Origin: Melastoma dodecandrum | Lineage: Eukaryota; Streptophyta; Magnoliopsida; Myrtales; Melastomataceae | Assembly (NCBI GenBank): GCA_029817715.1 | Contig: JARUPY010000190.1 | Coordinates: 372,001-436,000, forward strand | Direction: 5' to 3' | DNA: 64,000 bases | In this document: piece after piece, positions 1-62,046 of the stretch | How positions within the stretch are numbered: position 1 is the stretch's first letter | Layout: each line of letters begins with the position of its first letter | Position numbers and translations under genes: made by a program | The notes under the pieces: generated by a model | The model's input: only the letters and a program-made list of their open reading frames with translations | The model's database searches: none | What the model was told of the DNA's origin: nothing

Positions 1-1556
1 TCCTGATTGAAGGCCAGCGTGGGTTTCGTTTTTTTTTTTGGGAAGAGAAGTCGTCCTCCCCCCAGGTAAGTCTCTGATCCCTCTGTTTGTTTGTCGTTTT
101 GTTTTATTATTTATTATTATTATAATAATAAATAATTATAAATAATAAAATAATAAACAAATAGTAGAAAAAGGGGAAGGACGACGTTTTGAACTTATTT
201 CAATTGGATGTTTTGCATCTTCATTTTACACGTTAACAATGTATCTTCATTTTTTACACGTTAATAATGCATTTTTTCATTGTCTTTCATAAAAACACGG
301 CGGAATTTTTGGCAAACAATTCTCGAGCAATCTCGAAGTCAGTACACAAGAGTATGATCCTGGGAGACCGACAGCGGATTTCAAAATCTCCCATTCAATT
401 CAACCACTTCGTAAGTCATGCCTTACTTTTCAGTACGATCAAATACATGTCGATTTAATCGTTACTCATGCAAGGCTTTGCACATTTCTTTCCTTTCCCT
501 GTTTTGCATGTTAAACAACGAGGAAATCATTACCAAGGAACGTCATCTTTCGACATCACGAAGGATCAACATCAACGGGCCACACAACGCCCGGTGAGTA
601 ATCATTCTTACTCACCAGTTAATTCCAGATATTCTATATATTTTTTGGAATTTTCTTATATATCTCGTTTTCCTGTGGTGTTTTGATTTTGCATGAAAAA
701 TCAACCGAGCTTCATGGAATCCCGACAAAAGCGGCATTTTGAAGACAGAAAGCTCGAAGGCACTAGCTTCGAAGTAAAGCGGCATCAACCGTCATCTCAG
801 GTACATGAGGGAAGTGCGGGCTTCCCGTCTTTTCTTTATTTCCACATGTAACGGGTCGTGAGCCCAAGTGCATAGGCTCATGATCACCGCCCTTCCCCGC
901 TCCCTTTGATCTCAATAATTGGTTGTGATTGTTCGCATGCCTTAGGCCCGTAGGTTTATCGTCGCATGCTGTTTGCTAAGTACACATGAGTTCGAGCCCA
1001 AAAGGCTCGAATCGGGTCCAACGCCCGTAAAACAATGACATGAGTCCGGAGTCATGCCCGGATCGGGTCCAACGCCCGTTAATCAAAAGCCAAACACTTT
1101 TGGAGCAAACGCCACATCTTCGCATGTTTAGAGTGTAAAGATTTAGTAAGTAGAAATCCCCGAACCAGCTGTTTTTCCGACTTTAACAGTTTTAAAAAGA
1201 TAAAAAGTCGGTGGCGACTCCGTAATAGTTTACCTAGGTTAAACAACAACACTTTTTACAAAACGGAGCCATTTTGGATGGGTAACGGCGACACGAGCCG
1301 CTTCCTGGATCCTCCCGGAATTTCCCAAGCGAGGTCTTAACGCAGCCTTTCGCCCCTCGCCTTCAAGGACTGGAGACGGTCGGCGAAACGCCCCGCAGAT
1401 CCGCTCGGGAAACAAGGGAGGATTCAACCCGGTGCCCTTCCGCAGCGTCCGACGCTCGAGTCGCGATGTCGACCGAATTGGGCCTCGGGGAGCGGGCCTG
1501 GATCCTCGTGTCGCCAGAGTCGCAGCGCGCGTGCTAGGCCGGAGGGCGCGCGTACA
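1..1556 (+). repeat. 5' LTR of the LARD (3' part only)
   Basis: This stretch matches 9637-11190 almost base for base. It ends CGCGCGTACA, directly before the primer-binding site. It contains short inverted repeats, such as TCGAGCC...GGCTCGA near 1002-1022, and two copies of GTCCAACGCCCGT at about 1017-1077. These may shape the RNA 3' end region. The short open frames in it recur identically in the other LTR and look non-coding. Confidence 0.92.
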
Positions 1557-1563
1557 TCCCGGA

Positions 1564-1581
1564 TGGCGACTCCGCTGGGGA
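1564..1581 (+). other. Primer-binding site of the LARD
   Basis: TGGCGACTCCGCTGGGGA lies 7 bases after the 5' LTR end. This sequence class is the usual minus-strand priming site of Tat/Ogre Ty3/gypsy elements. The tRNA assignment (Arg) is from memory. Confidence 0.8.
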
Positions 1582-2280
1582 GTCTGCATGTGGATTTTTA
1601 TCGAAACGTCTTTACACTCGTCCACATGCGGAGGGGAGTTCTTGTTTGCGCATGTACTTATTTGGCTCGGTGCCTTTTGTCTGCGCTCATGTCTGTATCT
1701 GTTTACCGCTTTCTTAGGCATACTTAGGTAAGTCCCTATACCCGGGACTAGGATTTTTAGGGGGTCACCGAAAGGCACGGCCTTGCTGCTTCCTGCGGCT
1801 TGTAGGCTATGGACCGGGACCCGCCTCCCTTAGTCCGAGGGAGGTTTTAGAAGCCTTCATCCGTGAGTCTAGTATTGATTGCTCACTACAGGTACCAGAC
1901 GCCGCACGTGCATTTGTCTGTTACTGAGTGACTGTTACATATGCAGGGACAGGTGTCAGATACGCTTTGTCTGCTATAACTGTAAAACTAATGCTACTCA
2001 TTTTGCAGTTGATGGAGTTTATTACAATGGGCTTCAACAACCTTCATTTCTCCTATCCCTACCTTTTTTACTGCTTACAGCATTCATACATTCGCATGAC
2101 CACATGAGTGCCTGTTTAATTGCAGTAGTTACATTATCATGTCATTCACAGTAACTGCTCCATTGCAACACCGCATATGCATACTTTTCTGCATATACGA
2201 ATGTAATTAAGTATTACCACAAATTTATCATGCATCTATTACATTGTTGCCTGATACTAATCCAATCTTTCTCTCTACTT

Positions 2281-2700
2281 TCTTTTCGAGGATTAATGCT
2301 CCAACATGGCTCCTCGAACGGGACTTAAGGCGAGGCATGACATTACAAATCTACAAGCCCAATAATACCAAGGATTCATCGACGGCAACCAAGGCCCAAG
2401 CCGAACATCTAACAACATGAAGACCAAAGTTTCCATTACGGCTACCAAGGTCCAAAGCCGGTATCCAACGACATGAGCCCAAAGTGATATCACCAGCTAC
2501 CAAAGCACGAAGGCAAGCACGAACACCAAAGATCACCCAACGACTACCAAGGTTCAACGCCGAATCTAAAGCAACCTAAAAACCTCCAAGGAGGCTACAT
2601 TTCAAAAGGCCAATCTCCATCAACATCAAAACTAACGACAAACCAAAGAGCCATTCATAGACATGCAAAGACCGGACACGTCAGAACATCGTGCCTCTAC
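2281..2700 (+). repeat. Degenerate short repeats in the LARD interior
   Basis: Imperfect units of roughly 45-70 bp share a core like CTACCAAGGTCCAAAGCCG, followed by variants of 'ccaacgacatgagcccaaag'. At least four are visible between about 2380 and 2570. No coding sense is apparent. The rest of the interior from 1582 to 3500 has no feature I can name apart from possible splice acceptors (for example CACTACAG ending at 1891). Confidence 0.45.
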
Positions 2701-3499
2701 TGATCCGACAATCGCTCCAAGGAAATAAAAGCGATCACACTACATCATCAGTCAGCACAATCCAGCACAAGGACTCGTCGACCCTCTTCATGGTGCCAAC
2801 GGTACATTCTAGCACAAGGAGCAAACCCCGCCTTCACAACGACCTCGCGAGATCGGGACACCTGCAAGCAATCGACCTCACCGTCTCTCAGATAACAGGA
2901 ACTCGACGAACACCGGATCCAAAGCATCCCCACGACCAAAACATGGACATGGACCAGTTTTTCCAAGAGAGGGAAATACATAGCGCAACTGGCATTAGAA
3001 GCTCCTATTCGTTCTACTCGCCTTTCAATAGTTCAAAACATACATGATGAACTTACCGATATTTAAACTGCTAACACCTAGGCATCTATTTTACCTCGCA
3101 GGTACAAGACGACTCATCTGGGGCTAATACAACAGCACACCAATACCAAAGAATATGATGTCTACCAAACGACGACGCATACTTCGACTGGGGCAATTCC
3201 CGTTGATTTCCCTACGGCACCCAAGCGGTCATCCCGACAATAGTCAACCATCAACTCTCACCAAAGAAAGGAGGAAAAGGTCAGTCACCCCCTCACTCAT
3301 TGACGAGAAACAAGCATCTCGGCCCACCACAGGAACGGTCAATTCCCTAGCCCGCCCACCACAGTACCGGTCATCGCCCACGCGTACCACAAAGTGCTAC
3401 AACAACGCACATCCCGTGCAATTGCGCCTTTCAAAAGGGCACCTGTCGTAACAAAGAGGAACTGCCACAAAGAATCAACGCAGAAGATCCTCGACGTTA

Positions 3500-6400
3500 C
3501 AATCACGTAAAAGGGAGTATTCGTTCTTTAATCAATACTTCCTTATTTGCAAAAATGAGTTACATGAGCTCACTCATTTTAGCCCTTGTCGCATGTTGAC
3601 GAAGGCGTGGGTGGCAGGGTGGTAAAGTTTCGAGCCAAAGCCTTGAAACAATTTTGAGCCAAAGCTTCGAAATATTCTTCATTGTCAGCACGTAACAACA
3701 TGAAAGGAAGTATTCGTTGCCAAGTATATACTTTCTTTGCAGAAAAAACATGTTACATGAGCTTACATGTTTCTTGCCCTATGTTCGTCTCATAGGCACA
3801 TGAACATCCTAAGCAGACAACAACAGGCGCGGCGGTAGGGTGGTAAAGCTCCGAGCAATATCGGAGCAAAAATTCAAGCAATCTTGGATAAATCTTCGTT
3901 TCCGAGACAACGAATCACGTAAAAGGGAGTATTCGTTCTTTAATCAATACTTCCTTATTTGCAAAAATGAGTTACATGAGCTCACTCATTTTAGCCCTTG
4001 TCGCATGTTGACGAAGGCGTGGGTGGCAGGGTGGAAAAGTTTCGAGCCAAAGCATTGAAACGGTTTTGAGCCAAAGCTTCGAAATATTCTTTCGTTGTCA
4101 ACAAAACAACCGAACAACATGAGAGTACAAGAGCACCTTAAGCAGACAAGCAATATTGGGGCAAAACTCCAAGCAATCCTGGAGAAGTCTTCTTTTCCAA
4201 AATGACGATTTACATTAAAGGGAGTATTCGTTCCTCAACTAATACTTTCTCTGCAAAACAGGTTACACGAGCTTACTTGTTTTGCCCTTCGGCTTGTCTC
4301 ATAGGTACGTGAGCATCCTAGGCAGGCGACGAAGGCGAGGGTGGTAGGGTGGAAACGTTTCGAGCCAAAGTTTCGAAACAGCCTTCGTTGGTAAAACAAT
4401 GATGACGACAACACGAGAACAATCCTACGACAAATCTCCGAGCGATCCTGAGGCAAATCCTCGACCGATCCTGGGGCAAATCTCCGAGTGATCATGGACA
4501 TATCTCCGAGCAACTCTAGGGCATATCTCCAAGCAATCCTAGGACCAGACTGAGCAATCTTGGATAACTCTCAGTTGACAAAATGGCAAATAACATTAAA
4601 GGGAGTATATGTTCCTTAACAAATGCTTTTCTTACAAAACAAGTTACACGAACTTACTTGTTTTGCCCTTCGGCTTGTCTCATAGGCACATAAACAACCT
4701 AGGCAGACGTGAAGATACAACAACATCCTATCATGCCAATCAAGACAACTTTCGAATCAAAGCTTCGAAACAACACTCATGATCAACAAGACAACAAGAC
4801 AACAAATTACACGAAAATACATGAGCGTCTTAAGCAGACAACAAAGACAAACGATGAAGTTTTAAACCAACGCTTCAGAACAATCTTCGTCAGCAAACTT
4901 CTTTATATCCCCAGGGAGTCAACTGGGGCAAAGAACACTGACGATACACATGAAAAGGGAGAATCATACAAATATTACTCTCTTCATCAAGCTAAGTGAA
5001 ACTACATGAGCTCATTTCGCTTACGTCCTTTGTCTCGTGGGCAGGTACAAGAGCTCCTCACACGTATGGTGCAAAACTCCTATGACAAAGGCGAGGGTGG
5101 TAGGGTGGCAAAGCTTCAAGTTAAAATCTTGTAGCAATTTCGTCAGACCTTCAATTCCATCGGACGAAGATGTATTGATGAAATCACACGAAAAGGGAAG
5201 TGTCAAAACTCTACTTCACTTTTCTTACAAATGAAGTTACACGAGCAAACTTCATTCTTACTCTAACAGAAACAAGTTACAAGAATTTCCTTGTTTCTAG
5301 CCATCTGTTTGGTAGGCACATGAACATCCTTACACAACAGACATCAAGCAAGAGTAGCAATTTCGTCAAGTCCTTCGATTCCATCAGACGAAGACACAAT
5401 GACGAAACCTTACAAAAGGGAAGTACCAAAATCCTACACTACTTCACCTTTCTTATAAATGAAATTACATGAGCAAATTTCATTTCTACTCTAAAAGAAT
5501 CAAGTTGTACGAAGACGCTTGTTTTCTTGTCATTTGTTTGATAGGTACATGAGAAACCTTATACAACGCATACAAAACCAAAGTAGCCATTTCGTCAAAC
5601 CTTCGGTTCCATCGGACGAAGACACAATGACGAAACTATGTAAAAGGGAAGTACCAAAACTCTACTTCACTTTTCATATAAATGAAGTTACACGAGCAAA
5701 CTTCATTCTTACTCTAACAGAAACAAGTTACAAGAATTTCCTTGTTTCTAACAATCTGTTTGATAGGTACATGAGCATCCTTACACAACAGACACCAAAG
5801 TCTTGTAGCAATTTCGTCAAACCTTCGATTCCATCGGACGAAGATGCATTGATGAAATCACACAAAAAGGGAAGTACCAAAATTCTACTTCACTTTTCTT
5901 ACGAATGAAGTTACATGAGCAAACTTTAAGAATTTTCTTGTTTCTAGCCATCTGTTTGATAGGTACATGAACATCCTTACACAACAGACATCAAGCAAGA
6001 GTAACAATTTCGTCAGACCTTCGGTTCCATCGGACGAAGATGTATTGATGAAATCACACAAAAAGGGAAGTATCAAAACTCTACTTCGCCTTTCATACAA
6101 ATGAAATTACGTGAACAAATTTCATTCTTAGTTTGAAGGAAAACAAGTTACATGAGCTCACTTGTTGTCTGTCCTTTGCTTAACATAGGTACATGAACAC
6201 CCTATCTTATAGACAAAGGCGCGGGCGGTTGGGTGGAAAATTTCGGACCAAAGCTTCGAGATTGCCTTTGTCGTTATCATGAATAACCATGCCAAAAGGG
6301 AGTATCATTTACATTGCTCTCTAACAAAATTTTTAGAATCAGAACAACCATTGAAGTGGACATATCCATCTCACCTCCCCAGTGGATGTTTTACCTCATC

Positions 6401-6540
6401 TCCCCAAGCGAGAGTCAAAGTACATGAACTAACTTCGTTTCCGTCCGTTGTCAACTGTGCAGGCACATGGACATCCGTACAGTATGGTACAAATTCCTAG
6501 GCAACGGCGTGGGTGGTCGGGTGGAAGCCGTTTCCGAGTT
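3500..6540 (+). repeat. Array of diverged repeats carrying paired hairpins, LARD interior
   Basis: About a dozen diverged units, spaced roughly 190-380 bp apart, each carry a short hairpin whose stem sequence differs between units while both arms stay complementary. Many units have a second hairpin just upstream (AAGGGAGTATT...AATACTTCCTT type). Hairpin positions: 3552-3580, 3746-3772, 3964-3992, 4255-4283, 4636-4664, 4993-5023, 5230-5256, 5268-5298, 5457-5485, 5681-5707, 5719-5749, 6100-6126, 6142-6166. The usual loop is 11 nt, TACATGAGCTC or close. Downstream of several hairpins is a G-rich block, GAAGGCGTGGGTGGCAGGG and variants. No long ORF is conserved across units, so the array looks like structured RNA rather than protein. 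Two units (about 3505-3640 and 3915-4040) are almost identical, pointing to recent internal duplication. Confidence 0.75.
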
Positions 6541-7805
6541 CAATCTAAAAGAACATAGAACACGAAAGTGCACCACAGCACCACGGAGGTTTGAGTATCT
6601 AAACCTGTTCATTTCTTAAACATTCGTGTACCCATTTGCATATAATTTAAAATTATTTTTTATTTCTGAGTGAGAGTGGAGAAGGCAAACCTATTCCTAA
6701 ACACTTACCCAGAGTGATGAGCGCAAACACTGTAAGGACTCATACACGAGCATTCAGGCGGATAACGAATCCTTTGACAAAAGATGCTCTAAACCGGGAT
6801 GAGATCGAGCATTTCTTCTCTATCCCAAACACGAAACATCAACCATTGCTAGCCCCTTTCGAGCCAAAGTTGAGGTTTTGTACACACACTACACCTAACG
6901 AGTCCAAGGACCGCCTCACATCGAGGTTAAAATGGAGATCTTGTAGCTAGAAACCGGAAGCAACGGATCGTAGAGGCTACACTTCCTTAAGATTCAAGTG
7001 AAAAGGCATCATCAACAGTTAAGCTTACCAGTTGAGTCGTTCCTAAGGACCGAGCTTCTTAAAGAGCTTCTCAAGAATACAAATTCCAAAGGAGATTATC
7101 AGAAAATAAAACGGGGCAAATCCCTGTAATTTAGCAAGGAAAAGAAAGAATCAGCGCAAAGAACAAAGTCTTTAAAAGAAAGCGCAAAATGAAAATCAAA
7201 AGAGCAAAATAAAGCACCAGGGCCGACATTGCTGGTCGCAAAAGCAAAGGTGCTACTCTTTCAAACAGGTCAAAGACAAAACATTCCCCAAAGTGGATCG
7301 TCCATAACTACCAGTAAACCAATTATTCATCCCCCAACAAAACATGTCAACTGGTGAGCTGTCTAAAGGGTGAAGAATTTGCTTGAATGGTGAAACCTGT
7401 ACGATGCAATAGCTTCCGATGAGGTCCTTAAACACTTTCTTTCAAACAACTGATTCAAACTTCCAATTTAAAGGCCTTATGCCAAAGCCACATTATAACC
7501 CGAGTAAAGTCTCCTTCGACCGGTACATGAGCATCCAAGTCAAAGGAATTCCGAAATCCAACTCGAATGGTTTCAGAAAGGAGAGTGAAACACGAGAGAA
7601 ATTAACAAACCTTCTCTGCTCTCACTTGGAAACGTAATCTTAAAGAGAAAACAGAACGAAGCATAATGTGCATGTACATTTAGCTATTTTTTGTTTTCAT
7701 GACGACTAATGATCTCCTTTATTAGTTTCTATGGCGCATGTCAGCCAAGAATAATTTGAGGTATTAACGATATCCTTGTGAGAGAATCTTCCCAGAATCC
7801 CTCCC
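6541..7805 (+). other. LARD interior, 3' part, no feature recognised
   Basis: Non-coding A-rich sequence between the hairpin array and the polypurine tract. Open frames are short and match nothing I recognise. Confidence 0.5.
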
Positions 7806-7814
7806 AAGGAGGGG
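7806..7814 (+). other. Polypurine tract of the LARD
   Basis: AAGGAGGGG, then CAAAC and the LTR start TGTAATACCTC. This is the usual plus-strand priming position just upstream of a 3' LTR. Confidence 0.75.
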
Positions 7815-7819
7815 CAAAC

Positions 7820-10800
7820 TGTAATACCTCAAATTTTAAGGGGGGATTTGCGATTATTAGATTCAGGACCAATTTGAAAAAAATACGAAAGAATCTGTGC
7901 ACTCAATCTGAATCTTACAAGAAAAACGAAAACAAATAAAGAAAATAATAATAAAAGTGACAGAGAGCCAATCGTTCCTCCGTCGCCAAAAGGGAAGAGT
8001 CGTCGACAGCAACAAAGGGACATCCCCACCAGCTACAGTTAAAGAAGGCCTCACCTCAAGTTGCACAGCCCAGCCCACGTTTGGGCCTGCTGGGTTAGTT
8101 CGGCCAACAGGAGGCCCGTCCACCAAGCCCCACGCCTGACAGATGCGGCCCGACCTCTGGTCTAGGCTGATGGCCCGCCACCCCCTGTTGCACCGCCCAG
8201 AAGACCCACTCCCGGCAAGACTTCCCTGCATACAGCAACGGCGATGCGACGGCGCCTTGGGGCACACCCCAGCTAGCCCCCCCTATACCCCATCTTCCTG
8301 ACGACACCCCAGAAGAAGAAGGAGAAGCAGAAACCGATCTTCCTCCCGCCTCTCCTGGTAACCTCCTCAGACGGTGACGTCCCCTCTGCCTTGATGCGAG
8401 TGCCGGCTCGGATAATGGCTTAAAAAAAAGAGAGAGAGATCCCTCTGTAAAGGGACAGAGGGACGGAAGACAGAAGGGAGCTGAACATTTTCCCTCGCCC
8501 CCGTCTGAAAGAAAGAAAGGAAGACTTACCTGTAACTCCCGCGTGCCGTCTCGATTGTTCCCCTTTTTCCCTCCAGCCGACTCTGCCCAAGGTAAGCAAT
8601 GATAGGTGTTAGGAGGACGCCCCCTGGTGATCAACCCAAGAAGGACACTCAGCGGCCGCAGCGGACAGATCAACGGGCTCCCAGCTGCAGCGATCCCCGA
8701 CCCTTCTAGACACGGTAACAACGGCTTCACCGACCGCGACCTCTGGTGGATGGCGCCTTTCCGCTGCAAGGATAGGATGAACCCCTGTGGGCTACCCAAC
8801 AAGGACCACTGTCCCGATCCGGGAAAACTGTGTCTAAGCTCCCCGTGCGCACGGGGAGCTCTATCTCGTGTGCTGATCCCTTTCCTTTCAATGCGCAGGC
8901 GAATGCCACGAACCAGGCAACTCCCTCTTTGACGATCCATTCTGTCAGCCCGCCATCGGGGTCTCAACATTAGCGGCAGCCACTGAACCAGAGGTTTCAA
9001 GCTCCACGGTTTCGACAACGAGTAATCTGACGCCTCCCAAGCACGAGTCCCGCCCCGACCAGTCTGGAACCAAGGCGCCCGTCCGCATCAACTCTCCCCG
9101 CCGCCTCCTCCCTTTCATGCGGCGGGGCCTCCTTCCCCTTTTTTGGTTCTCGGCCAAACCCCCTCCTCGCGCCCAGATCCGCACCCAATCGTCATGGTCG
9201 TCTCCTCCTTCCTCGTCGCCGACGTCCGGCCTCCCCAGATCTGACCGCGGCGAAGCTCCCCTCCCTGACGAGCCCCAGACGGCAACCCACCTCCAGCCAC
9301 CACGTGACTAGCCGCCCTGCCCAAATCCGGCGAGAAGACGACAGTGGCGGCAGCGGCAAAACCCTCCCCTCCTGTGGCCGTCTTCTCCAGACTCAAGCTG
9401 CAACAGACCCCCCCGGGAGCCCGCCTCCCTGGATCCGACCACAGCGGAGGCCCATCCAGCGACCCCGGTCCCGGATCCTCCATGGCGAACCCCCGACATG
9501 CCCGCATCTTCCCGCCGTCCGACTTCAGATTTCCCCGACGCTGACCCAGATCCGAAGTGCCGGCCTCCCCCTTTCCTTCCATGCGGCGGGGTCTTCCTTT
9601 TCTTCCCCGGTCCGGTCACCCGCTGCCCATCGCCTCTCCTGATTGAAGGCCAGCGTGGGTTTCGTTTTTTTTTTGGGAAGAGAAGTCGTCCTCCCCCCAG
9701 GTAAGTCTCTGATCCCTCTGTTTGTTTGTCGTTTTGTTTTATTATTTATTATTATATAATAATAAATAATTATAAATAATAAAATAATAAACAAATAGTA
9801 GAAAAAGGGGAAGGACGACGTTTTGAACTTATTTCAATTGGATGTTTTGCATCTTCATTTTACACGTTAACAATGTATCTTCATTTTTTACACGTTAATA
9901 ATGCATTTTTTCATTGTCTTTCATAAAAACACGGCGGAATTTTTGGCAAACAATTCTCGAGCAATCTCGAAGTCAGTACACAAGAGTATGATCCTGGGAG
10001 ACCGACAGCGGATTTCAAAATCTCCCATTCAATTCAACCACTTCGTAAGTCATGCCTTACTTTTCAGTACGATCAAATACATGTCGATTTAATCGTTACT
10101 CATGCAAGGCTTTGCACATTTCTTTCCTTTCCCTGTTTTGCATGTTAAACAACGAGGAAATCATTACCAAGGAACGTCATCTTTCGACATCACGAAGGAT
10201 CAACATCAACGGGCCACACAACGCCCGGTGAGTAATCATTCTTACTCACCAGTTAATTCCAGATATTCTATATATTTTTTGGAATTTTCTTATATATCTC
10301 GTTTTCCTGTGGTGTTTTGATTTTGCATGAAAAATCAACCGAGCTTCATGGAATCCCGACAAAAGCGGCATTTTGAAGACAGAAAGCTCGAAGGCACTAG
10401 CTTCGAAGTAAAGCGGCATCAACCGTCATCTCAGGTACATGAGGGAAGTGCGGGCTTCCCGTCTTTTCTTTATTTCCACATGTAACGGGTCGTGAGCCCA
10501 AGTGCATAGGCTCATGATCACCGCCCTTCCCCGCTCCCTTTGATCTCAATAATTGGTTGTGATTGTTCGCATGCCTTAGGCCCGTAGGTTTATCGTCGCA
10601 TGCTGTTTGCTAAGTACACATGAGTTCGAGCCCAAAAGGCTCGAATCGGGTCCAACGCCCGTAAAACAATGACATGAGTCCGGAGTCATGCCCGGATCGG
10701 GTCCAACGCCCGTTAATCAAAAGCCAAACACTTTTGGAGCAAACGCCACATCTTCGCATGTTTAGAGTGTAAAGATTTAGTAAGTAGAAATCCCCGAACC

Positions 10801-11190
10801 AGCTGTTTTTCCGACTTTAACAGTTTTAAAAAGATAAAAAGTCGGTGGCGACTCCGTAATAGTTTACCTAGGTTAAACAACAACACTTTTTACAAAACGG
10901 AGCCATTTTGGATGGGTAACGGCGACACGAGCCGCTTCCTGGATCCTCCCGGAATTTCCCAAGCGAGGTCTTAACGCAGCCTTTCGCCCCTCGCCTTCAA
11001 GGACTGGAGACGGTCGGCGAAACGCCCCGCAGATCCGCTCGGGAAACAAGGGAGGATTCAACCCGGTGCCCTTCCGCAGCGTCCGACGCTCGAGTCGCGA
11101 TGTCGACCGAATTGGGCCTCGGGGAGCGGGCCTGGATCCTCGTGTCGCCAGAGTCACAGCGCGCGTGCTAGGCCGGAGGGCGCGCGTACA
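7820..11190 (+). repeat. 3' LTR of the LARD (3,371 bp)
   Basis: It starts TGTAATACCTCAAATTTT after the polypurine tract and ends GCGCGCGTACA. About 8000-9640 is strikingly GC-rich and open on both strands, then the sequence turns abruptly AT-rich at a perfect splice-donor consensus, CAG|GTAAGT, at 9700/9701 (repeated at 65/66 in the 5' LTR). The GC-rich frames have low-complexity composition and no family match, so I do not call them genes. Confidence 0.9.
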
Positions 11191-15295: not shown

Positions 15296-18200
15296 TCAAC
15301 TTCCAGTTCTCCTCCACATTCGTTTGTTAGGGTATAGTCGATACGGGCCATCAAATGACACGAGTTCCCAGCAGTTTTCAATTATCAAGCGGCAGTCTCC
15401 CCCCATACAGGGCACGCTTATCAGAGAGTTGCACCAACTAAACTTCACCCTCTTCAATCTTCTCAAGTTTGAGAGGTCTGCGATTTCATCCGCGAAACCA
15501 CACCAGGAGACCTCTAATTCCTCCAAGAGCTCCATCCTCTCGATCCCAGAAAAGTTAATGCATTCACAATCCTCCAGAAGTAAGTAGCAAAGCCTCCTCA
15601 ACGATCCTAAATTGGACAACCTGATAGGATAAATGATATTCCCCATATAATCTCGTCTATCCAGCGAAGTCCCATTCTGCATTGACTGCCAACAACGCCA
15701 GAGTGACAATCTACGCAAGGACGAAGGATGCAGCGATGCGGATGAAACATCGCAACCACACAGAGAGAGATCCTGCAGCCAGGACAAGGAACCCAAGGAC
15801 AAGGAACCCAAATTAGTAGAAAGAATACAACCGACATCCAAACTTAATTACGCAAGGACGAAGGATGCAGCGATGCGGATGAAACATCGCAACCACACAG
15901 AGAGAGATCCTGCAGCCAGGATAAGGAACCCAAGGACAAGGAACCCAAATTAGTAGAAAGAATACAACCGACATCCAAACTTAATTTCTGCAACCCATAT
16001 ACCTTTTCTATCCCCTCTACATCCACAGCGAGACGACCTAAAAGATTGCATCTTGCAAGGTTAGGCACCTCTGACATTGGAATTCTAAAAGAAGAAAATA
16101 ACTGGGAAATTTCCAACACCTCAAGGCTCTTTAGATTGCCGACCGAGGAAGGTAGCTTCCATATGCATGACACAGACACATGGAGTATTCTCAAGTCCCC
16201 TAGCCTCCCAATAGACTCTGGCAACTCAAAATATTCGGAACACTCGGACAAACGGAGCTCTTGTAGAACTTTTGCATATCCAAGCTCTTCTGGTAACCTT
16301 TTCAAGCTGTCACATTTGAATATATACAGGCGTTTAAGATACCCTAATACACCGATAGAACTGGGGATTTCTTCCAAATTCCTGCATCTGAAGAGAGTAA
16401 TTATCTCTAGCTTTGGGAAACAAGAGAGGTCGGGCAGTCTTGTAATCTCCGCTTTCGAGATAACAAGTACTCTCAAATTACCCATTCTCTATTAAAACAA
16501 AAAAAACGAGTATCATCCCACGATTAGTTAATGTTGATTTTCTGCTTCATGAGAGATGGATACAAGGGAAAGGAAATTAATACCAGGTCTTCCATTAAAT
16601 TGTCCGTAATTCCACACCCCCAAAGCTCGAGAATGACGAGGCTGTCCATCTTGAAGAAATTGGGATTAGGTCTGTGATAGATCTCCACATACCAACGTAG
16701 CCACAATAGATTCATCCGGAAATTCCTAAACTTCCCACTTAATTTTGCTCCATGTACTAGGTTGAGAAACCTGATATTGGACATGCCCTTGAATTCCTTC
16801 CCGGTTAAAACTTCGCAAGTATCTTCCAGGTTAATGGCTAAAACTTGATCGGTGCCCTGGTAGGAAAACATAAAGGAAATGAGGAAGCCAAAGAGAGAGA
16901 TTGAGTCCAATCCAATAAATCAGGAAAACATTATTAATTATTATTATCATATCACTTGCTCTTGGCGTATGACATTAAGGGCCAATTTAGGATCCCACAG
17001 TCTGCTGCGCTTGCCCGGGCTCTCTGAATTAACAATCTCCCTTCCCATCTCTCTAATTAAGTCATGCATCCAATACTTTTCCCTGACATTCCATACCTTT
17101 ATCAAAGATCTGTTCTGGAGGACATCCAATGCACTTTTAGGAAAAAAACCACAGGCTTCCCACATGTAACTCGCATAACCCTTGTCCATCACATAATCGT
17201 CGAAACATGCAATGTCCAGAAAAATCTGCTTCTCACTCTCGTCTAAGTCATCGTAGCTGATCCGCAGCTTACTCAAGACGTCTTTGTGAGGCACTCGCTC
17301 CAGCTTTTCCAATGTATGTTCCCATTTATTCTTTTCCTTTCCGAATAATTGCCCTCCGATCACCTCTAAAGCTAAGGGAAGATTTCTGGACATACGAATA
17401 ACCCGCTTCGATAAATCAACAAAGTCATCAGCAGGTACGTCTCCACCAAATGCGTGCCGACTGAAGAGTTGCAGAGCATGATCAAAGCTCATACCCTTCA
17501 CTTCATAAGCACTATCACTAGGTCTCATAAGGCCCTCACAAACGCTCTTATCCCTCGTCGTGACGAAAATTATCGTTCCCGGACCGAAGAAACCGAAATT
17601 TCCAACCAACTTTTTGAGCTGACTACTCTCGCTGACATCATCAAAAATGATAAGGACCCTTCTGTTGTGGAGCCTTCTTTGGATCTCATTCATTCCATCA
17701 CTAGAGTCACCAATTTCTCCATCCGATTTGCCGAAGATATCCCTCAATACCTTCTTTTGCAACCTTTCAACACCCCCCACACCAGTCGACAAGGAATCTC
17801 GCACATCGGCAAGGAAGCAGCATCCATCGAATCGGGAACAGATTCGGTTGAAGATGACACTCGCCAACGTTGTCTTCCCAATACCCCCCATGTCGTGCAC
17901 CACCACAACATGTCGTTCAACGCGAGAACTCAAATTCAACATGTCGATTACATCCTCCACGCGATCATCCATCCCTACGAGATGATCCGGCAAACTCCTA
18001 TCTTTGATGTTCAGCTTGTTTAGGATATCCGCAACCACAGCACTAACAAACTCGCCCATCCTGTCCAAAATCAAATGGAGATCAAGTTACTCAAAAAACT
18101 GCCGACTAACAACATGGAAAAGCATAAAGGAAACAACAGCCGTTGAACTATCCGAAATGACATAAATAATTATATAAGAAAGAGAAAGAAAAAGATTATG

Positions 18201-25240: not shown

Positions 25241-25325
25241 TAGATTTTAGAATCTTTTACCTGCAACAAAAGCAATTTGTGTTGACCAAGTAGTTTAATT
25301 TTTTCTCTCTCTCTTTTTCAGGTGT

Positions 25326-27356
25326 ATGCGCCGCTCGCCCAGCGAGGATTTATTTGCGTTTGATCCTGAGATTGAGAGGACATTTCAAGCACTCAGAAGG
25401 AGTCAACGGAGCACGATGGCAGAGCTAAATCCGAACAATGGAAATAACAACCAGATTCAACAAGTTGATCCGTCAGCCCCGAGAAGGACGATGCGAGACT
25501 TCGCTCAACCTACTCCCCATGAGCCCACCAGATTTCTTCGTCCAGCAATTCAGGCTCAGAATTTTGAGATCAAGCCGTCCATACTCCACATGATTGAGAA
25601 CTCTAGTTTTGGAGGCTTGACAAACGAAGACCCTCACTGGCACCACACTCGCTTCGAGGATTTATGTGACACGTTTAGATGCAATGGAGTGTCAGCCGAG
25701 GCAGTCCGAATGAGATTGTTTCCGTTTTCGTTACGGGACAAGGCTCAGTCATGGCTTTATTCCTTGCCAGAAGAGGCAGTCCGATCATGGCAGCCAAGGC
25801 ATCCACGGAACAACCCGTTTTCCAGCACCTACAATCCTGGATGGAGAAATCACCCAAACGTCTCATGGAGAAACAATGCAGGGCCACAAGAACCAAGTCA
25901 ACCGAGGATGAATTAGCCTCCAGGTTTTATGACCACAAAACAGCCACCTGCAGGTGAGAATAGGCCTAATGTTGATGAATTACTAACCCGGTTGCTTGCC
26001 AGTCAGGAGGAAACCCGGAAACAACAAGAGGAGGTTCAAAAGCGTCAAGAGATGATCCTGAAGGATCATGCTACGTCCATTAAACAATTGAAAGTGCAAA
26101 TAGGGCAAATTGCAAGTTCTATTACCAGCAGACCTTACGGAACTTTACCAAGTAACACCGAGGTAAATCCCAAAAGAGAACATTGCAACGCCATCACCCT
26201 TCGCAATGGTTGTGATTTCGAAGAAGCCTTCGAGAAGATGGAGGTGGAGAAGGAACAAGCTAGAGAGAAACGCCACAAACAGAAAACAAGCGAAGGAGGA
26301 GGCGAGACAAATGATAAGGGGTCGACTGATGTCGCAACCACAAAGGTACACACCTCAAAACCACCATTTGTACCCAAAATTCCTTTTTCGCAAAGGCTTA
26401 AAAAATCTACTGACGAGCATCAATTCAGAAAGTTTCTAGATGTCTTTAAGCAATTGCAGATTAATATTCCATTTGCGGAAGCTTTGGAGTAAATGCCCAA
26501 ATATACCAAATTCATGAAGGATGTGTTGTCAAGGAAGAGAAGAATCGGTGAGCATGAGACAATTGCACTTACTGAAGAGTGCAGTGCCATTTTGAAAAAG
26601 AAGCTACCACCGAAATTAAAGGACCTAGGTAAGTTCACTGAAGAGTGCAGTGCCATTTTGAAAAAGAAGCTACCACCGAAATTAAAGGACCTAGGTAAGT
26701 TCACTATCCCCTGTAGCATTGGAACTCAATTTTCATGTTATGCCCTCTGTGATTTAGGTGCAAGCATCAATTTGATGTCATTTTCCATCTTTGATAAGTT
26801 GAACATCGGGGAGGTAAAATCGACATCTTTAACTTTGCAATTAGCTGATCGGTCTTACACTTATCCAAAGGGCGTAATTGAAAACATGCTGGTAAAGGTC
26901 GATAAATTTATTTTCCCAGCTGACTTTGTCATTTTAGATTATGAAGAAGATCGAGAAATTCCAATCATATTGGGAAGACCTTTCTTAGCCACAGGACGAA
27001 CTTTGATTGACGTACAAAAAGGCGAACTTACCATGCGTGTCCATGATCAAGAGGTAACTTTTAACATATGTAATGCCATGAGTATTCCTAACGAGATTGA
27101 TGAATGCAGCTTCGTGGATGTGAATGATGAAATCTGGTATGAAGACTTGTTTGAAAAATACGTTGTTGCACTAATCGAAGAGTGGCCACAAGAGGATGAA
27201 TCAGAATATGTTGTAACAAAGAGTGATGAAACTGAGATAGAGCAGGCTGCGTATATGCGTCATGTGCCACGGGCTGAACCATTGGAACGCCCCATCTCTG
27301 CAGCAAAACCGTCAATAGAAGAGCCGCCTGAGGTATTCATTTTTAGGTTCAGGTAG
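25326..27356 (+). pseudogene. Athila-type gag-protease, broken
   Basis: A single frame runs from 25326 with stops at 25914 and 26490. The gag N-terminal part is seen (MRRSPSEDLFAFDPEIE, RLFPFSLRDKAQSWLYSLP), but after the capsid start it jumps to a late-gag segment (NPFSSTYNPGWRNHPN), so most of the capsid core appears deleted. A coiled, glutamine-rich stretch follows (EETRKQQEEVQKRQE). The protease region 26700-27080 has ALCDLGASINLMSFSIFDKL and the IILGRPFLATGRTLID motif; the CDLGAS active-site form is usual for this lineage. A 66-bp in-frame tandem duplication lies at 26571-26702. The frame is lost at about 27350 before RT. Confidence 0.85.
26571..26702 (+). repeat. 66-bp in-frame tandem duplication between gag and protease
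   Basis: Two copies (26571-26636 and 26637-26702) each encode a 22-residue unit beginning EECSAILKKKLPPKL. The copies look identical, so this is a recent change relative to the age of the element. It is absent from the Athila proteins I know. Confidence 0.9.
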
Positions 27357-27411
27357 TACTCTTCCAGTTATTATTTCGGCTGCATTATCTAACAAACAGG
27401 AAGAGGAACTA

Positions 27412-30195
27412 TTGCGAGTGCTTCGAGAACACAAAACAGCTCTTGGATGGAGCATTGCAGACACTAAGGGAATTAGTCCTGCGCTATGCATGCACAAGAT
27501 CAGGCTTGAAGACAACAAGAAAGTTTCGATCCAGCAACAGAGGAGGCTCAACCCGAATATGAAAGAGGTGGTAAGAAAAGAAATAATAAAGTGGTTAGAT
27601 CCATGAATCATATACCCCATCTCAGACAGTTCGTGGGTGAGTCCAGTTCAGTGCGTTCCAAAGAAAGGTGGCATGACCGTGGTGGAAAACGAAAAGAACG
27701 AGCTCATCCCAATGCGAACAGTCACCGGTTGGAGAGTTTGCATGGATTATCGGAAACTAAATGCAGCCACCTGCAAAGATCATTTTCCTTTACCTTTTAT
27801 TGATCAAATGCTTGATCGTTTGGCTGGAAAAAGTTTTTATTGTTTTCTTGATGGATATTCAGGTTACAATCAAATCGCAATCGCACCGGAAGACCAGGAA
27901 AAGACAACATTCACCTGCCCTTATGGAACGTTCGCCTTCCGTCGGATGCCTTTCGGATTGTGTAACGCACCTGCTACTTTTCAAAGGTGCATGACTGCAA
28001 TTTTTTCTGATATGATCGAACAAAGTATTGAGGTATTTATGGACGATTTCTCTGTTTTTGGATTATCTTTCGAGAATTGCCTTGATAATTTATCTGCGGT
28101 GCTTACTCGATGCCAAGAAACTAATCTTGTTCTCAATTGGGAGAAATGTCACTTTATGGTGCGTGAAGGAATTGTTTTAGGCCACCGAATTTTAGAAAGC
28201 GGAATTGAAGTCGACAAAGCTAAGGTGGAAACAATTGAACGCTTACCACCACCTTCATCTGTGAAGGGAGTGCGTAGTTTTCTTGGCCATGCAGGTTTTT
28301 ATAGAAGATTTATCAATGATTTCTCCAAGATAACGAAACCACTTTGCAATCTGTTGGAGAAGGATATGGCTTTTGTATTTGACGGCAAATGCATGGAGGC
28401 ATTCATGGAGCTTAAAAAGAGGTTAGTTTCTGCACCAATTATTGTTGCACCGGATTGGTCAATGCCTTTTGAGCTAATGTGTGATGCCAGTGACTTTGCG
28501 GTGGGAGTTGTGCATGGCCAGAAGAAAGATAAGGTATTCCATGCAATTTATTATTCTAGTAAAACCTTGGATAGTACACAGGTAAATTACACAACCACGG
28601 AGAAAGAAATGTTAGCCATAGTTCATGCTTTTGATAAATTCAGATCTTATCTTATTGGATCGAAAGTTATTGTACACACTGACCATGCAGCAATAAGATA
28701 TTTAATTTCAAAGGCAAATGCAAAACCGCGACTAATCCGATGGGTGTTATTGCTTCAAGAATTCAATCTTGAGATTGTGGACAAGAAAGGAGCGGACAAT
28801 CAGGTGGCAGACCATTTATCAAGGCTAGAAAACGACAACAGGATCCCAGACGGAACACTTATAAATGATGTGTTTCCTGACGAACAACTGTTTGGGGTTG
28901 ATGTGGCTACACCATGGTATGCTGATTACGTGAACTACATTGTAGCTGATATTCTACCACCGGATCAGTCATACCAACAAAGAAAAAGGTTTTTACATGA
29001 TGTTATATATTACTTTTGGGATGAACCGCTTTTATTCAAAAAGTGTGCAGATCAAGTCATTCGAAGATGTGTACCGGAGGAGGAAATGCAGAAGATATTG
29101 TAACAGTGTCACGCGTCGCCTTATGGTGGGCACCACGGTGGCCACAAAACCGCGGCAAAGGTTCTTCAATCTGGTTTTTTCTGGCCTTCACTATTTAAGG
29201 ATGCACACCAATTTGTTGCTCATTGTGATTGCTGTCAACGTGTTGGTAATATATCTTGCCGCGATGAAATGCCTTTGAAAAATATTTTAGAGGTTGAAAT
29301 TTTTGACGTATGGGAGATTGATTTCATGGGACCATTCGTTGAATCATTTAGAAATCGATATATTCTTGTAGCTGTGGATTACGTGTCTAAATGGGTAGAA
29401 GCTATTGCTTTGCCGATTAACGATGCTAGTGGAGTTTTGAAGTTTCTAAAGCAGATATTCATACGATTTGGGACACCGCGTGCAATAATAAGTGACGGAG
29501 GTTCACACTTCTGCAATGTCAAATTCAATGCCCTCATGAAGAAATATGGCGTGAATTACGAGGTAGCATTGGCTTATCATCCTCAGATGAGTGGCCAAGT
29601 TGAGGTATCCAACAGAGAAATCAAAAGAATCTTGGAAAAGACGGTTAGCCCAAATCGGAAGGATTGGTCGCGCAAATTGGATGATGCTTTATGGGCTTAT
29701 AGGACAGCTTACAAGACACCAATTGGGACCTCACCGTACAAATTGGTTTACGAGAAAGCTTGTCACTTACCCGTTGAGCTAGAGCACAAAGCATTTTGGG
29801 CAATCCAGAAGCTTAATCTTGATCTTGAAATTGCAGGTAAACAACGATTACTTCAACTCGATGAACTTGAAGAATTTCGGCTGGAGGCATATGAGAATTC
29901 CAGGATCTATAAAGATAAAACGAAGAAATGGCATGACCAACGCATCAAAGATCGACAGTTCAAACCAGGCCAGCTCGTTTTACTTTTTAACTCACGTTTA
30001 AAATTGTTTCCTGGCAAATTGAAATCTCGTTGGTCAGGGCCGTTCAAGATTACCCAAGTGTTTCAGTATGGAGCTCTTGAATTGGAGAGGTTGAATGACC
30101 AAGGTAGGTTCAAAGTAAATGCAAGTAAAGTGAAGCACTATTTGGGAGGAAGTGTCGATCAAGGACAATCAACATTGTTGATGAGCGAAGCATGA
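27412..30195 (+). pseudogene. Athila-type pol: RT, RNase H, integrase, two in-frame stops
   Basis: One reading frame spans the region, with stops at 27604 and 29101. The RT region begins near 27637 with [13 protein letters not shown]; motifs are [28 protein letters not shown] and the catalytic FMDDFSVF. RNase H shows [25 protein letters not shown] and [10 protein letters not shown]. The integrase zinc finger (H..H..C..C) lies at about 29104-29250. The catalytic core follows: [18 protein letters not shown], and [16 protein letters not shown] with the conserved glutamate. The C-terminal part has [20 protein letters not shown], the GPF/Y-type module. The stops rule out an intact polyprotein. Confidence 0.92.
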
Positions 30196-50468: not shown

Positions 50469-50678
50469 TTTGGTATCAGAGCCAGGTTGGTCGGGTTGTC
50501 GGGGACGAGCTGCCGAAGTCCAGCGGTGATTCTGCTGAAGTCCAGCAGAGTTTTTTTTTTTTTTTTTTGCCGAAGTCCAGCGGAGGTTCTGCCGAAGTTC
50601 TATCAAGGAAGCTGCAATCCGGGATTGCGTTGGGCATAGGTCGGGGACCAGGCTACGCTTCCAGAAAGTAAATTAGGT

Positions 50679-51485
50679 ATGGCAGAATTTAATACTGTCG
50701 GCATGATGAAGAAATTAAACAACCAGAATTATAGCACGTGGAAGACGTGCATAGAATCTTACTTACAAGGCCAAGATCTCTGGGAGATCATTGGTGGGAG
50801 CGAGACCATTCCACCGGAGGAAGATGCTGTCGCTTTGAGGAAATGGCGAATTAAGGCAGGGAAGGCCATGTTCGCCATAAAGACTACTATAGAGGAGGAA
50901 ATGCTTGAGCATATAAGGTACGCCACTACTCCAAAAGATGCCTGGGATATACTAGCGACTAGGTTCTCTAAGAAGAATGATATGAGACTACAGTTGCTAG
51001 AGAATGACTTGCTGGCAGTTAGACAAGGAGATTTAGGAATTAACCAATTCTTTACAAAAGTAAAGTCTATTTGCCGGGAGATATCAGAGTTAGACCCAGG
51101 ATCCAGGATTAGCGATGATAGGATGAGGAGGATTATTATCCATGGCTTAAGGCCAGAATATAGGGGATTTATTGCGGCGGTGCAAGGATGGCCCACGCCG
51201 CCATCGCTAGAAGACCTGGAAAATTTGCTAGCTAATCAGGAGACGCTAGCAAAACAATTGGCAGGCATAACCTTAAAATATGAAGATGAGGCGTTATATA
51301 GTAATAGGGGAAGAAGCTATACTAAGAATAAAAGGAGTGAGGAGAGAAGATTCCCACAAGGCAGTAGAAGTGAGCGACGTGAGCAGCAACCGAATAGACT
51401 ACAACAACAGAAGAGAGTAGGCAAACCGGCTCAGCGGAAGGATGCAGAATGCTTCAACTGTGGTAAGAAGGGACATTACGCCTGA
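50679..51485 (+). pseudogene. Copia gag, ending at a stop inside the zinc knuckle
   Basis: Starts ATG with MAEFNTVGMMKKLNNQNYSTW (usual copia gag opening), then WDILATRFSKKND and LRPEYRGFIAAVQGWP. The C-terminal zinc knuckle begins CFNCGKKGHYA and is cut by TGA at 51483-51485 before its last cysteine. The same frame then continues without break to 53477, so gag and pol were one polyprotein. With the stop, the product would be a gag lacking a complete nucleic-acid-binding knuckle. Confidence 0.9.
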
Positions 51486-53477
51486 GACTGTTGGTTCAAG
51501 AAGAAAAACGTAGAAGGAAATGCTGCCACATCAAGCAGTCAAGACGGAGACAAATCTGAAGAAGAGTGGAACCTTGAAGCATCTCTTGCCGTGCTAGAAG
51601 AACAGCAATTGTTGGAAGACCAGGCTCTTGCAGTAGTCCACAATAAATCGGTGGACTACGCAGAAAATTGGATATTTGACTCGGGGTGCTCCAACCATAT
51701 GACGGGTGATCAGGAGAAGCTACAGGAACTGTCAGAATACAAAGGACAGCGAGTCGTCGTCACCGCTAACAACTCAAAACTACCCATTGCTCATATTGGG
51801 AAGACTGTCATAGAAGGTGATGACAGTTCCAACAAGGTTCAACTGCAGGGAGTCTACCATGTCCCTGCTATAAAGAAGAATCTTCTGTCAGTAGCCCAAC
51901 TGACAGCCCCTGGCAATTTCGTGGTGTTCGGGCCAGAAGATGTGAAAGTCTACCGTGAGCTAAAGTTCTCTGGGACGCCGTTCATGGAAGGACGGAAGGT
52001 AAACTCCATCTATGTGATGTCAGCAGAATCGGCATACATAGATAAGGTAAAGAGGAATGAGACAGTTGACCTGTGGCATGAGAGGCTTGGACACGTCGGA
52101 TACCACAAGTTAAAGGTGATGATGAGCAAGGAGATGTTGAAGGGTCTCCCGCAACTTGAAGTAAGTGTTGACAACATCTGCTCAGGCTGTCAATACGGAA
52201 AGGCACATCAGTTACCGTATGAAGACTCCAAGTATAGAGCCGAAGAACCATTGCAGTTGATTCACTCAGATGTGTTTGGTCCTGTGAAGCATCCATCAGT
52301 AGGTGGCTACAAATACATGGTGACCTTCATCGACGACTACTCGAGGTATGTGTGGGTAGACTTCATGAAAGAGAAGACAGAGGTCATACAAAAATTCAGA
52401 GAGTTTAAGATCCAGGCAGAAAGCGAATTGCAGAAGAAGATAAGATGTATGCGCACAGATAATGGAGGAGAATACACCTCACAAGAGTTTACACAGTACC
52501 TCAAGGAGTCAAAGATAAGAAGACAACTGACATGCCCTTACACGCCACAACAGAATGGTGTGGCAGAAAGAAAGAATAGGCATCTTGCAGAGGTATGCAG
52601 AAGCATGTTGCACGCAAGGAATGTCCCGGGAAGATACTGGGCAGAGTGCATGAAGACAGCTGCAGATGTTGCAAATAGGCTACCGCAAGCTCGCCTTGAG
52701 TTCAAGACACCATTCGAGCTACTCTGGAAAATGAAGCCTACAGTGAGTCACTTTCGGGTCTTTGGGTGCGTCTGCTATGTCTTCATCCCTAGCCACTTGC
52801 GGAGCAAGTTCGACAAGAAGGCGACCAAGTGTATCTTCGTAGGATACGACACAGAGAGGAAAGGATGGAGATGCTGCGATCCTACGACCAACAAGTGCAC
52901 CGTATCAAGGAACGTTGTTTTCGATGAAGCAACTTCTTGGTGGTCACCCTCAACAATAGAAGAAAACAAGGATCACATTAAGCAGGGGGAGCTAGTAACA
53001 ATAAAACCAACTTTTGAAGAAACTGAAGAAGGGCCTTCTATAATAAGAAATGATGATACAGAAGAAGAGAGACCTTGGCAAACAGGAGTGTACCAAAGGT
53101 CCTCTGAGGAGAATGCAACAGAAGAAGAAACTGGTGACGGGATGACACCGTTGAGAAGATCCACTAGGCAACGGAGACCGCCAACACGATACATAGACGC
53201 ATCACTTGCGGAAGATATAGATCCACATGAGCCATCAACTTATGAAGAAGCATCCAAGCACAAGGTATGGCGAGAAGCGATGAGAGAAGAGATTAGAGCA
53301 TTAGAGGATAATCAAACTTGGGATTTGGTGCCCAAACCTAACAAGGTTATACCGATATCCTGCAAGTCGGTCTATAAGGTGAAAGCTCGCATAGATAGTT
53401 CAGTGGAGAGATACAAGGCTCGTCCCGTCACTCGAGGAATTTCAAGTATAACTCGGCAGGATAAAAAGAGAAAGTAG
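51486..53477 (+). pseudogene. Copia protease-integrase, RT truncated
   Basis: In frame with gag. Protease: [11 protein letters not shown] at about 51675. Integrase zinc finger: [13 protein letters not shown] ... CSGCQYGK. Catalytic core: [28 protein letters not shown], and [14 protein letters not shown] (D, D, E). The post-integrase segment has the copia motif [13 protein letters not shown]. The RT region opens normally ([18 protein letters not shown]) and reaches ERYKAR, then passes into a short tail and a stop at 53475. All RT catalytic motifs and RNase H are missing. The truncation abuts the polypurine tract, so it is an internal deletion. Confidence 0.92.
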
Positions 53478-61879: not shown

Positions 61880-62046
61880 GAATTGATCTACAATAGGAAG
61901 CATTACACCTATTTATGGTTCTTTTACCACCAAGTCCTATTTTTAACCACATAAAATTTCTACCTACCTCCCTCTCGATGCTTCTTGACTATGATATAAT
62001 TTTCCCGGTCTTAGTTTTGATTTTCGCGACGGATCTTTAGAAGGGT
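61880..62046. repeat. Duplicated block, partner of 12632-12800
   Basis: Nearly identical to 12632-12800, but joined directly to the TNL-C LRR sequence at TGGAGGGATTTTTTTTCAG, lacking about 0.6 kb present in the other copy. Confidence 0.7.

Follow-up and report, generated by a model that had tools for sequence, protein, structure and literature searches.

A tandem array of hairpins with covarying stems and a nearly constant loop in a Melastoma dodecandrum retrotransposon without recognised protein genes

Large retrotransposon derivatives (LARDs), such as Sukkula of barley, combine long, near-identical long terminal repeats (LTRs) with an internal region devoid of gag/pol coding, and in a source which, like the others cited here, was available in part, they are said to have conserved RNA folds (PMC7215508). 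Retrotransposons of the Tat/Ogre group carry tandem units in the untranslated part of their internal region; the available part of one account treats these as sequence repeats and a source of satellites, and its main text lacks the term "secondary structure" (PMC7004042). The genomic RNAs of Ty1 and Ty3 form folds with cis-acting roles in packaging and dimerisation, but these structures lie at the 5' end and are not a repeat array (PMC11381356). In alphacoronaviruses, SL5 presents three hairpins with one loop (UUYCGU) in the 5' untranslated region (UTR); a packaging role is proposed for them but lacks validation by reverse genetics (PMC7925004). Here we describe an array of hairpins in a 64,000-nucleotide stretch of Melastoma dodecandrum DNA (contig JARUPY010000190.1, positions 372,001 to 436,000; hereafter the window, numbered from its first base). 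The array lies within an LTR retrotransposon without recognisable protein genes.

Like the LARDs, this element has long, near-identical LTRs (99.8% identity over 1,556 bp; the 3' LTR is about 3.4 kb) and an internal region in which none of 16 open reading frames (ORFs) of at least 80 amino acids matches a Pfam domain above cut-off; it differs in its tandem series of similar hairpins whose loops are nearly the same. We know of no such array in LARDs. Tandem units in an untranslated internal part are shared with Tat/Ogre elements, although such units occur elsewhere too and are not proof of Tat. Compared with SL5, the hairpins number about 25 rather than three and sit in a retrotransposon, and we claim no homology. 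Conserved RNA folds have already been claimed for LARDs, and tandem repeats are well known in Tat elements; as far as our searches show, what is new is hairpins arrayed in tandem that share nearly one loop, while their stems, of two types, vary freely. A literature search met no plant retrotransposon described as carrying an array of constant-loop hairpins, a weak negative with subscription journals thinly covered and sources available in part. Searches with array patterns gave no match in viral contigs (three patterns) or in genome contigs (one pattern), as expected for a plant element.

In a typical unit of the array, hairpins of classes A, C and D accompany one or two B hairpins. Pairing in the B stems is conserved beyond a tree-based null. 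We aligned the 14 intact B hairpins as 13 distinct rows, counting U1 and U3 once because they are a recent duplication (97%), and left out a truncated copy at 5912 and a decayed one at 6421. Across the resulting 9 pairs and 117 cells, 92.3% of cells are paired, and 7 of the 9 pairs are altered on both sides (1/500 shuffles). The covariation score was 0.501, compared with 0.202 in shuffled alignments (0/500), and sliding the partner by 1–3 columns gave scores of 0.04–0.09 with 38–51% of cells paired. Cells changed on both sides numbered 19, against 6.5 in shuffles, and the number of further pair types was unexceptional (12 versus 10.3 shuffled; 55/500). The most telling pair, 8-28, is C-G in seven rows, G-C in five and U-A in one; pair 7-29 is A-U in seven, U-A in four, U-G in one and unpaired in one.

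To obtain a null that respects ancestry, inferred substitutions were placed at random on a neighbour-joining tree of the 13 rows, itself built from the same 35 columns. None of 3000 simulations lacking structure matched the observed percentage paired or the observed score in either version of this null, and for two cruder counts 0–3 of 3000 did so. Of the changes inferred on the tree, about 6.8 are double compensatory and 4.6 are single changes that keep the pair; 6.1 break a pair and 3.3 repair one. When arms were swapped between hairpins, the observed complementarity was reached in 0/20000 trials for each of three sets (16, 13 and 11 B hairpins) and in 2/20000 for 8 hand-picked ones; displaced arms of 11 B hairpins gave no signal (603–2941 of 5000). 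An earlier note on this DNA, made from its letters alone, had claimed that the B arms change together, and had staked that claim on covariation above a phylogenetic null in an alignment of many copies. Among the units of this one element, shuffles, tree null and arm swaps all bear it out.

The hairpins were inventoried by checking for stems at 30 places in 3400-7800 that matched a hand-made list of loop variants. Intact B hairpins have loops starting at 3561, 3754, 3973, 4264, 4645, 5003, 5238, 5278, 5466, 5506, 5689, 5729, 6108 and 6149, on stems of 9 to 14 positions with mismatches counted in. The B loop consensus is TACAYGARC followed by two free bases, and 10/14 intact hairpins have it exactly. 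Eleven further hairpins, of class C and absent from the earlier list, carry nearly the same loop as B: with loops at 3797, 4306, 4687, 5046, 5317, 5546, 5768, 5964, 6190, 6464 and 7524, all are within one base of YACAYGARC and six are exact, and AGG/CCT flank the 11-nt loop in 8/11. Three loop-like places (4126, 4818, 6743) have no clear stem. The earlier note's hairpins are all present where it placed them, but its count of thirteen becomes 14 intact, one truncated and one decayed. Its near-constant 11-nt loop stands for the ten exact copies and is departed from by one base at 6108 and more plainly at 5278, 5506 and 5729. The partner (A) hairpin that it saw at 5193 exists with different arms, better drawn as GAAAAGGGAAGT/ACTTCACTTTTC with one mismatch.

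The units (U1 to U12) and one outlying hairpin are laid out as follows.

3505 to 3692, plus strand: U1, with A 3511-3544, B 3549-3583 (loop 3561-3571), G-rich box 3609-3623 and D hairpins
3697 to 3905, plus strand: U2, with A 3703-3738, B 3743-3775 (loop 3754), C 3793-3811, G box and D GCTCCGA/TCGGAGC 3848-3867
3917 to 4105, plus strand: U3, the recent duplicate of U1, with A 3923-3956 and B 3961-3995
4212 to 4385, plus strand: U4, with A, B 4253-4285 (loop 4264), C 4302-4320 within a longer predicted stem, G box and D 4357-4379
4591 to 4790, plus strand: U5, with A, B 4635-4665 (loop 4645), C 4683-4701 and D 4750-4770, without G box
4951 to 5150, plus strand: U6, with A, B 4993-5023 (loop 5003), C 5037-5061 and G box
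5186 to 5408, plus strand: U7, with A 5190-5224, B1 5230-5256, B2 5268-5298, C 5304-5341 and D
5408 to 5640, plus strand: U8, with A, B1 5454-5488, B2 5494-5528, C 5532-5571 and D 5591-5620
5638 to 5860, plus strand: U9, with A 5642-5674, B1 5681-5707, B2 5719-5749, C (loop 5768) and D 5813-5842
5858 to 6056, plus strand: U10, with A 5865-5897, truncated B1 5906-5928, C (loop 5964) and D
6056 to 6285, plus strand: U11, with A, B1 6100-6126, B2 6142-6166 (loop 6149), C 6181-6209 and G box
6288 to 6560, plus strand: U12, decayed, with A, B-like loop 6421, C 6454-6483 and G box 6511
7512 to 7547, plus strand: isolated C-like hairpin outside the array, loop TACATGAGC

Both the loop motif and the stems are concentrated here. 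TACAYGARC occurs 19 times in the window, always on the plus strand and 18 times inside the element (some of them outside clear stems); 1.29 occurrences are expected for both strands, and 0/100 shuffles reach 19. Nine-position stems scoring at least 8 around an 11-nt loop number 15 in the 2.7-kb array (12 B, 3 A) and 27 in the remaining 61.3 kb, and Watson-Crick-rich stems number 38 in 3.1 kb compared with 12, 12, 22 and 16 in four equal-sized controls; two shorter controls have 11 and 6. These counts bear on the view that we are looking at the ordinary hypervariable tandem repeats of a Tat-type element, in which hairpins are incidental. Tandem repeats are common in such elements (PMC7004042, available in part), and Tandem Repeats Finder reports periods of 223 bp and 196 bp in the array, but because B covariation and stem density both exceed the controls run, we regard that explanation as highly improbable.

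Two further repeats accompany the hairpins. Between C and D, 7/12 units have a G-rich box, GGGTGGTAGGGTGG and variants, at 3609, 3831, 4021, 4339, 5095, 6223 and 6511; it is absent from U5 and U7-U10, and could be single-stranded or form a quadruplex. Nested in the larger array, at 4420-4543, is a 23-bp tandem array of 5.4 copies of small hairpin-like units.

We compared loops with stems zone by zone, the columns being taken as independent and the P values left uncorrected for how many zones were compared. In U1, U2, U4, U5 and U6, the B loop has 8/11 invariant columns, compared with 37/141 overall (P 0.0011); the B arms (3/17) are no more conserved than average, and the A arms and G box have 7/22 and 3/18. 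The statistics demonstrate a constrained loop for B of U1-U6 alone; the constancy of the B1 and C loops is seen by eye, and the three B2 loops named above have left the motif.

The strongest non-functional explanation for the covarying arms is template switching during reverse transcription or replication, which would rewrite one arm from the other and leave a neutral tandem array whose RNA has no function. The mechanism is described for RNA genes, where it yields compensatory pairs (PMC8794818, available in part), and our alignment has features that fit it, namely neighbouring double changes (pairs 8-28 and 7-29) and hardly any G-U intermediates (4/117 cells). To this extent the earlier argument, that arms kept complementary while they drift betray selection, is only partly upheld: the pairing withstands three controls, but template switching could also give compensatory pairs. 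It leaves unexplained, however, both the conserved B loop of U1-U6 and the appearance of nearly one loop on two stem types, and we consider it unlikely.

The other hairpin classes were examined by the same arm swaps. A hairpins had been thought to behave just as B does; they do covary, but more weakly, with 39/20000 (ungapped) and 91/20000 (by energy) in 11/12 units, U3 being dropped as a duplicate, and 540 and 795 of 20000, respectively, in seven diverged units. The corresponding values for 11 D hairpins of two mixed subclasses were 1 and 2 of 20000. For C, the swap set comprised 9/11 hairpins, those at 5768 and 5964 being dropped as near duplicates, and the result by duplex energy, with internal loops allowed, was 18/20000. 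Mutually exclusive outer stems were considered as well, with a strand before C and another after D each complementary to the one preceding the G-rich box; the idea arose by eye in U4, U11 and U12 and was rejected when swap tests on 6 units were not significant (174/720, 58/720).

The host element is bounded by two LTRs, identified by comparing the window with itself (1-1556 against 9637-11190). Both copies end in ACA, the 3' copy opens with TG at 7820, and the internal region is 1557-7819. The primer-binding-site (PBS) candidate and a polypurine-tract candidate at 7806-7819 were found by eye.

1 to 1556, plus strand: right part of the 5' LTR, 99.8% identical to 9637-11190, ending ...TACA at 1556; its start precedes the window
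1557 to 1582, plus strand: PBS-like stretch directly 3' of the 5' LTR, by eye
1685 to 1692, plus strand: leader segment GCTCATGT, an exact complement to loop core ACATGAGC and unique as such on the plus strand of the window, which could be chance
7753 to 7766 with 7822 to 7835, plus strand: perfect 14-bp inverted repeat spanning the polypurine-like tract and the 3' LTR start
7820 to 11190, plus strand: 3' LTR, TG...CA, about 3.4 kb

Its description in the earlier note as a non-coding retrotransposon held for the ORFs scanned. The coding scan compared the 16 stop-to-stop ORFs of at least 80 amino acids overlapping the internal region with Pfam at curated cut-offs; none had a match above cut-off, and no reverse transcriptase was among them. 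A coding function was set aside on this basis, three sub-threshold matches (E 0.007–0.046) being taken as chance. Because the LTRs are near-identical and no protein domain was found, the array probably acts via RNA or DNA. Nothing in the window reached the Rfam gathering threshold, so that known RNA families, the hammerhead ribozyme and 5S RNA (Retrozymes / Cassandra) were not encountered, and a search for tRNA genes found none. From the PBS-like sequence and the repeats we take the element, as a candidate label only, to be of the Tat lineage.

A simple retrovirus has repeated loops in its transport element. Structured RNA transport elements also occur in LTR retrotransposons, as in mouse IAP and MusD (PMC12786077, available in part), and export would be needed for a long RNA in which no ORF is recognised. 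The array might by analogy bind a host protein and control RNA export, stability or translation; weighing this against the lack of any Rfam family at gathering threshold in the window, we give such a role only a small chance.

The fact that stems change in step around a near-constant loop suggests that the folded RNA itself, perhaps as a protein docking site, is being kept. Our preferred reading, to which we assign a probability of roughly 45%, is that the array is a multivalent cis-acting RNA whose loops are docking sites, most likely for the Gag of an autonomous partner element. It would belong, as a repeated and structured segment, to the sense RNA of an LTR retrotransposon that is non-autonomous, sense RNA being assumed as the acting strand because the element moves through it. 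Most B hairpins, and the C hairpins, carry nearly one loop, YACAYGARC, with stem sequence free provided that pairing holds, and the presence of this loop on both stem types counts for docking. Tandem duplication may have multiplied the sites to about 25, made up of 14 intact B hairpins and 11 C hairpins, and an RNA without its own Gag could in this way be gathered into foreign virus-like particles.

Results from covariance models and folding count partly for the docking reading. A model built from the 14 intact B hairpins recovers all of them and the truncated one (5900-5938, E 0.016), with nothing outside the element at E <3.5. With U7-U11 as the source, a model built on 7 of their 8 intact B hairpins found 6/7 held-out intact ones at E ≤0.0007; two of these, the hairpins of U1 and U3, are duplicates of each other. 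A sequence-only model found four at E 0.0004 or better, two at 0.017 and that of U6 at 0.33. The gain from structure is small because the covariance model is better for 3742 and 3550/3962 but worse for 6137 and 4252. Compared with shuffles, the units fold on the plus strand with a mean z of -2.21, versus -0.66 for 15 other internal stretches.

Several results weigh against the docking reading. The evidence comes from the sequence of a single element, and the protein partner is one that we infer. The B loops at 5278, 5506 and 5729 depart clearly from the motif (5/11 invariant columns in U7-U9), and in U7-U11 no loop class is significantly conserved (B1 8/11, P 0.14; C 7/11, P 0.32; B2 3/9, P 0.93), the most conserved zone there being the A arms (21/24, P 0.00013). 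The ungapped arm swap for C was not significant (5792/20000). The sequence-only model is about as good overall as the covariance model, which found the held-out U6 hairpin only at E 0.18. The minus strand of the units also folds well (mean z -1.54 versus -0.21 for the 15 other internal stretches), U6, U10, U11 and U12 go no lower than z -1.5 on the plus strand, and z drops below -2 in three internal stretches that are not units (2000-2200, 6600-6800, 7600-7800). Strand asymmetry is weak, with 5 G-T and 1 A-C wobble cells plus 8 other among 323 pairs, and in the B register the A-C cells are located at stem ends; wobble type was set aside as a strand test, such cells being too few to be decisive. 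Finally, the array (3505-6560) lies 1.9–5 kb from the PBS-like stretch and not at the 5' end, as a retroviral-type signal would; because of this distance, a classical leader signal is disfavoured, though Ty3 is said to require its two UTRs as well as POL (PMC11381356, available in part).

The loops might instead work by base pairing, either with each other, as a kissing dimer, or with the leader segment at 1685. As self-complementary sequences, CATG and GAGCTC could serve the former, but they are kept in only 6/14 and 4/14 intact B loops, respectively, which also disfavours the dimerisation role that the earlier note had listed as an option. The leader segment GCTCATGT lies about 130 nt past the LTR and is the sole exact complement of ACATGAGC on the plus strand of the 64 kb, although about one exact 8-mer match is expected there by chance. 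Within the element, the loop core TACATGAGC has just two near complements (8 of 9), at 1648-1656 and 1685-1693, likewise in the leader, soon after the PBS-like stretch; chance alone would give about 1.2. We judge base pairing to be a distinctly unlikely basis for the array. More speculatively, a parasitic RNA may have amplified a docking hairpin to some 25 copies on two stem types, outcompeting the autonomous RNA for packaging through multivalent binding, and the loop may in addition be read by the complementary leader segment; we put this forward as a possible but doubtful elaboration of the docking reading.

To our knowledge, the selection of plant retrotransposon RNAs for packaging is little understood, especially for those that lack proteins. 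The packaging sequences are said not to be precisely defined even for Ty3 of yeast (PMC11381356, available in part). The short loop that recurs here on stems free to vary offers a concrete, testable packaging candidate, and the 13 distinct B hairpins within one element provide a built-in set of variants.

Some observations concern the element outside the array. The right arm of the inverted repeat at 7753-7835 falls at the start of the 3' LTR, and the polypurine tract could be presented in its loop. A 14-bp inverted repeat is reached by 5/614 other 120-nt internal windows, by position those containing the same repeat. The region 7640-7830, other hairpins included, folds with z -4.47 (0/200 shuffles), and 2000-2200 has a plus-strand z of -3.48 (0/150 shuffles).

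Elsewhere in the window, 16947-18086 and 56303-57694 (minus) are two related pieces of NB-ARC disease-resistance genes with a Roq1-like winged-helix domain, lying in a repeated block. For one host protein in the window, a search gave 13 hits, one of them from wheat; the best named relatives are dicot ones, led by Eucalyptus at 40%. A gypsy-type pol region spans 25299-30195 (reverse transcriptase, RNase H and integrase at 27607-30195) and a copia-type gag-pol region 50640-53477. An ORF at 60245-61954 has a caulimovirus coat-protein domain (E 1.4e-8) and is presumably a fragment of an endogenous pararetrovirus.
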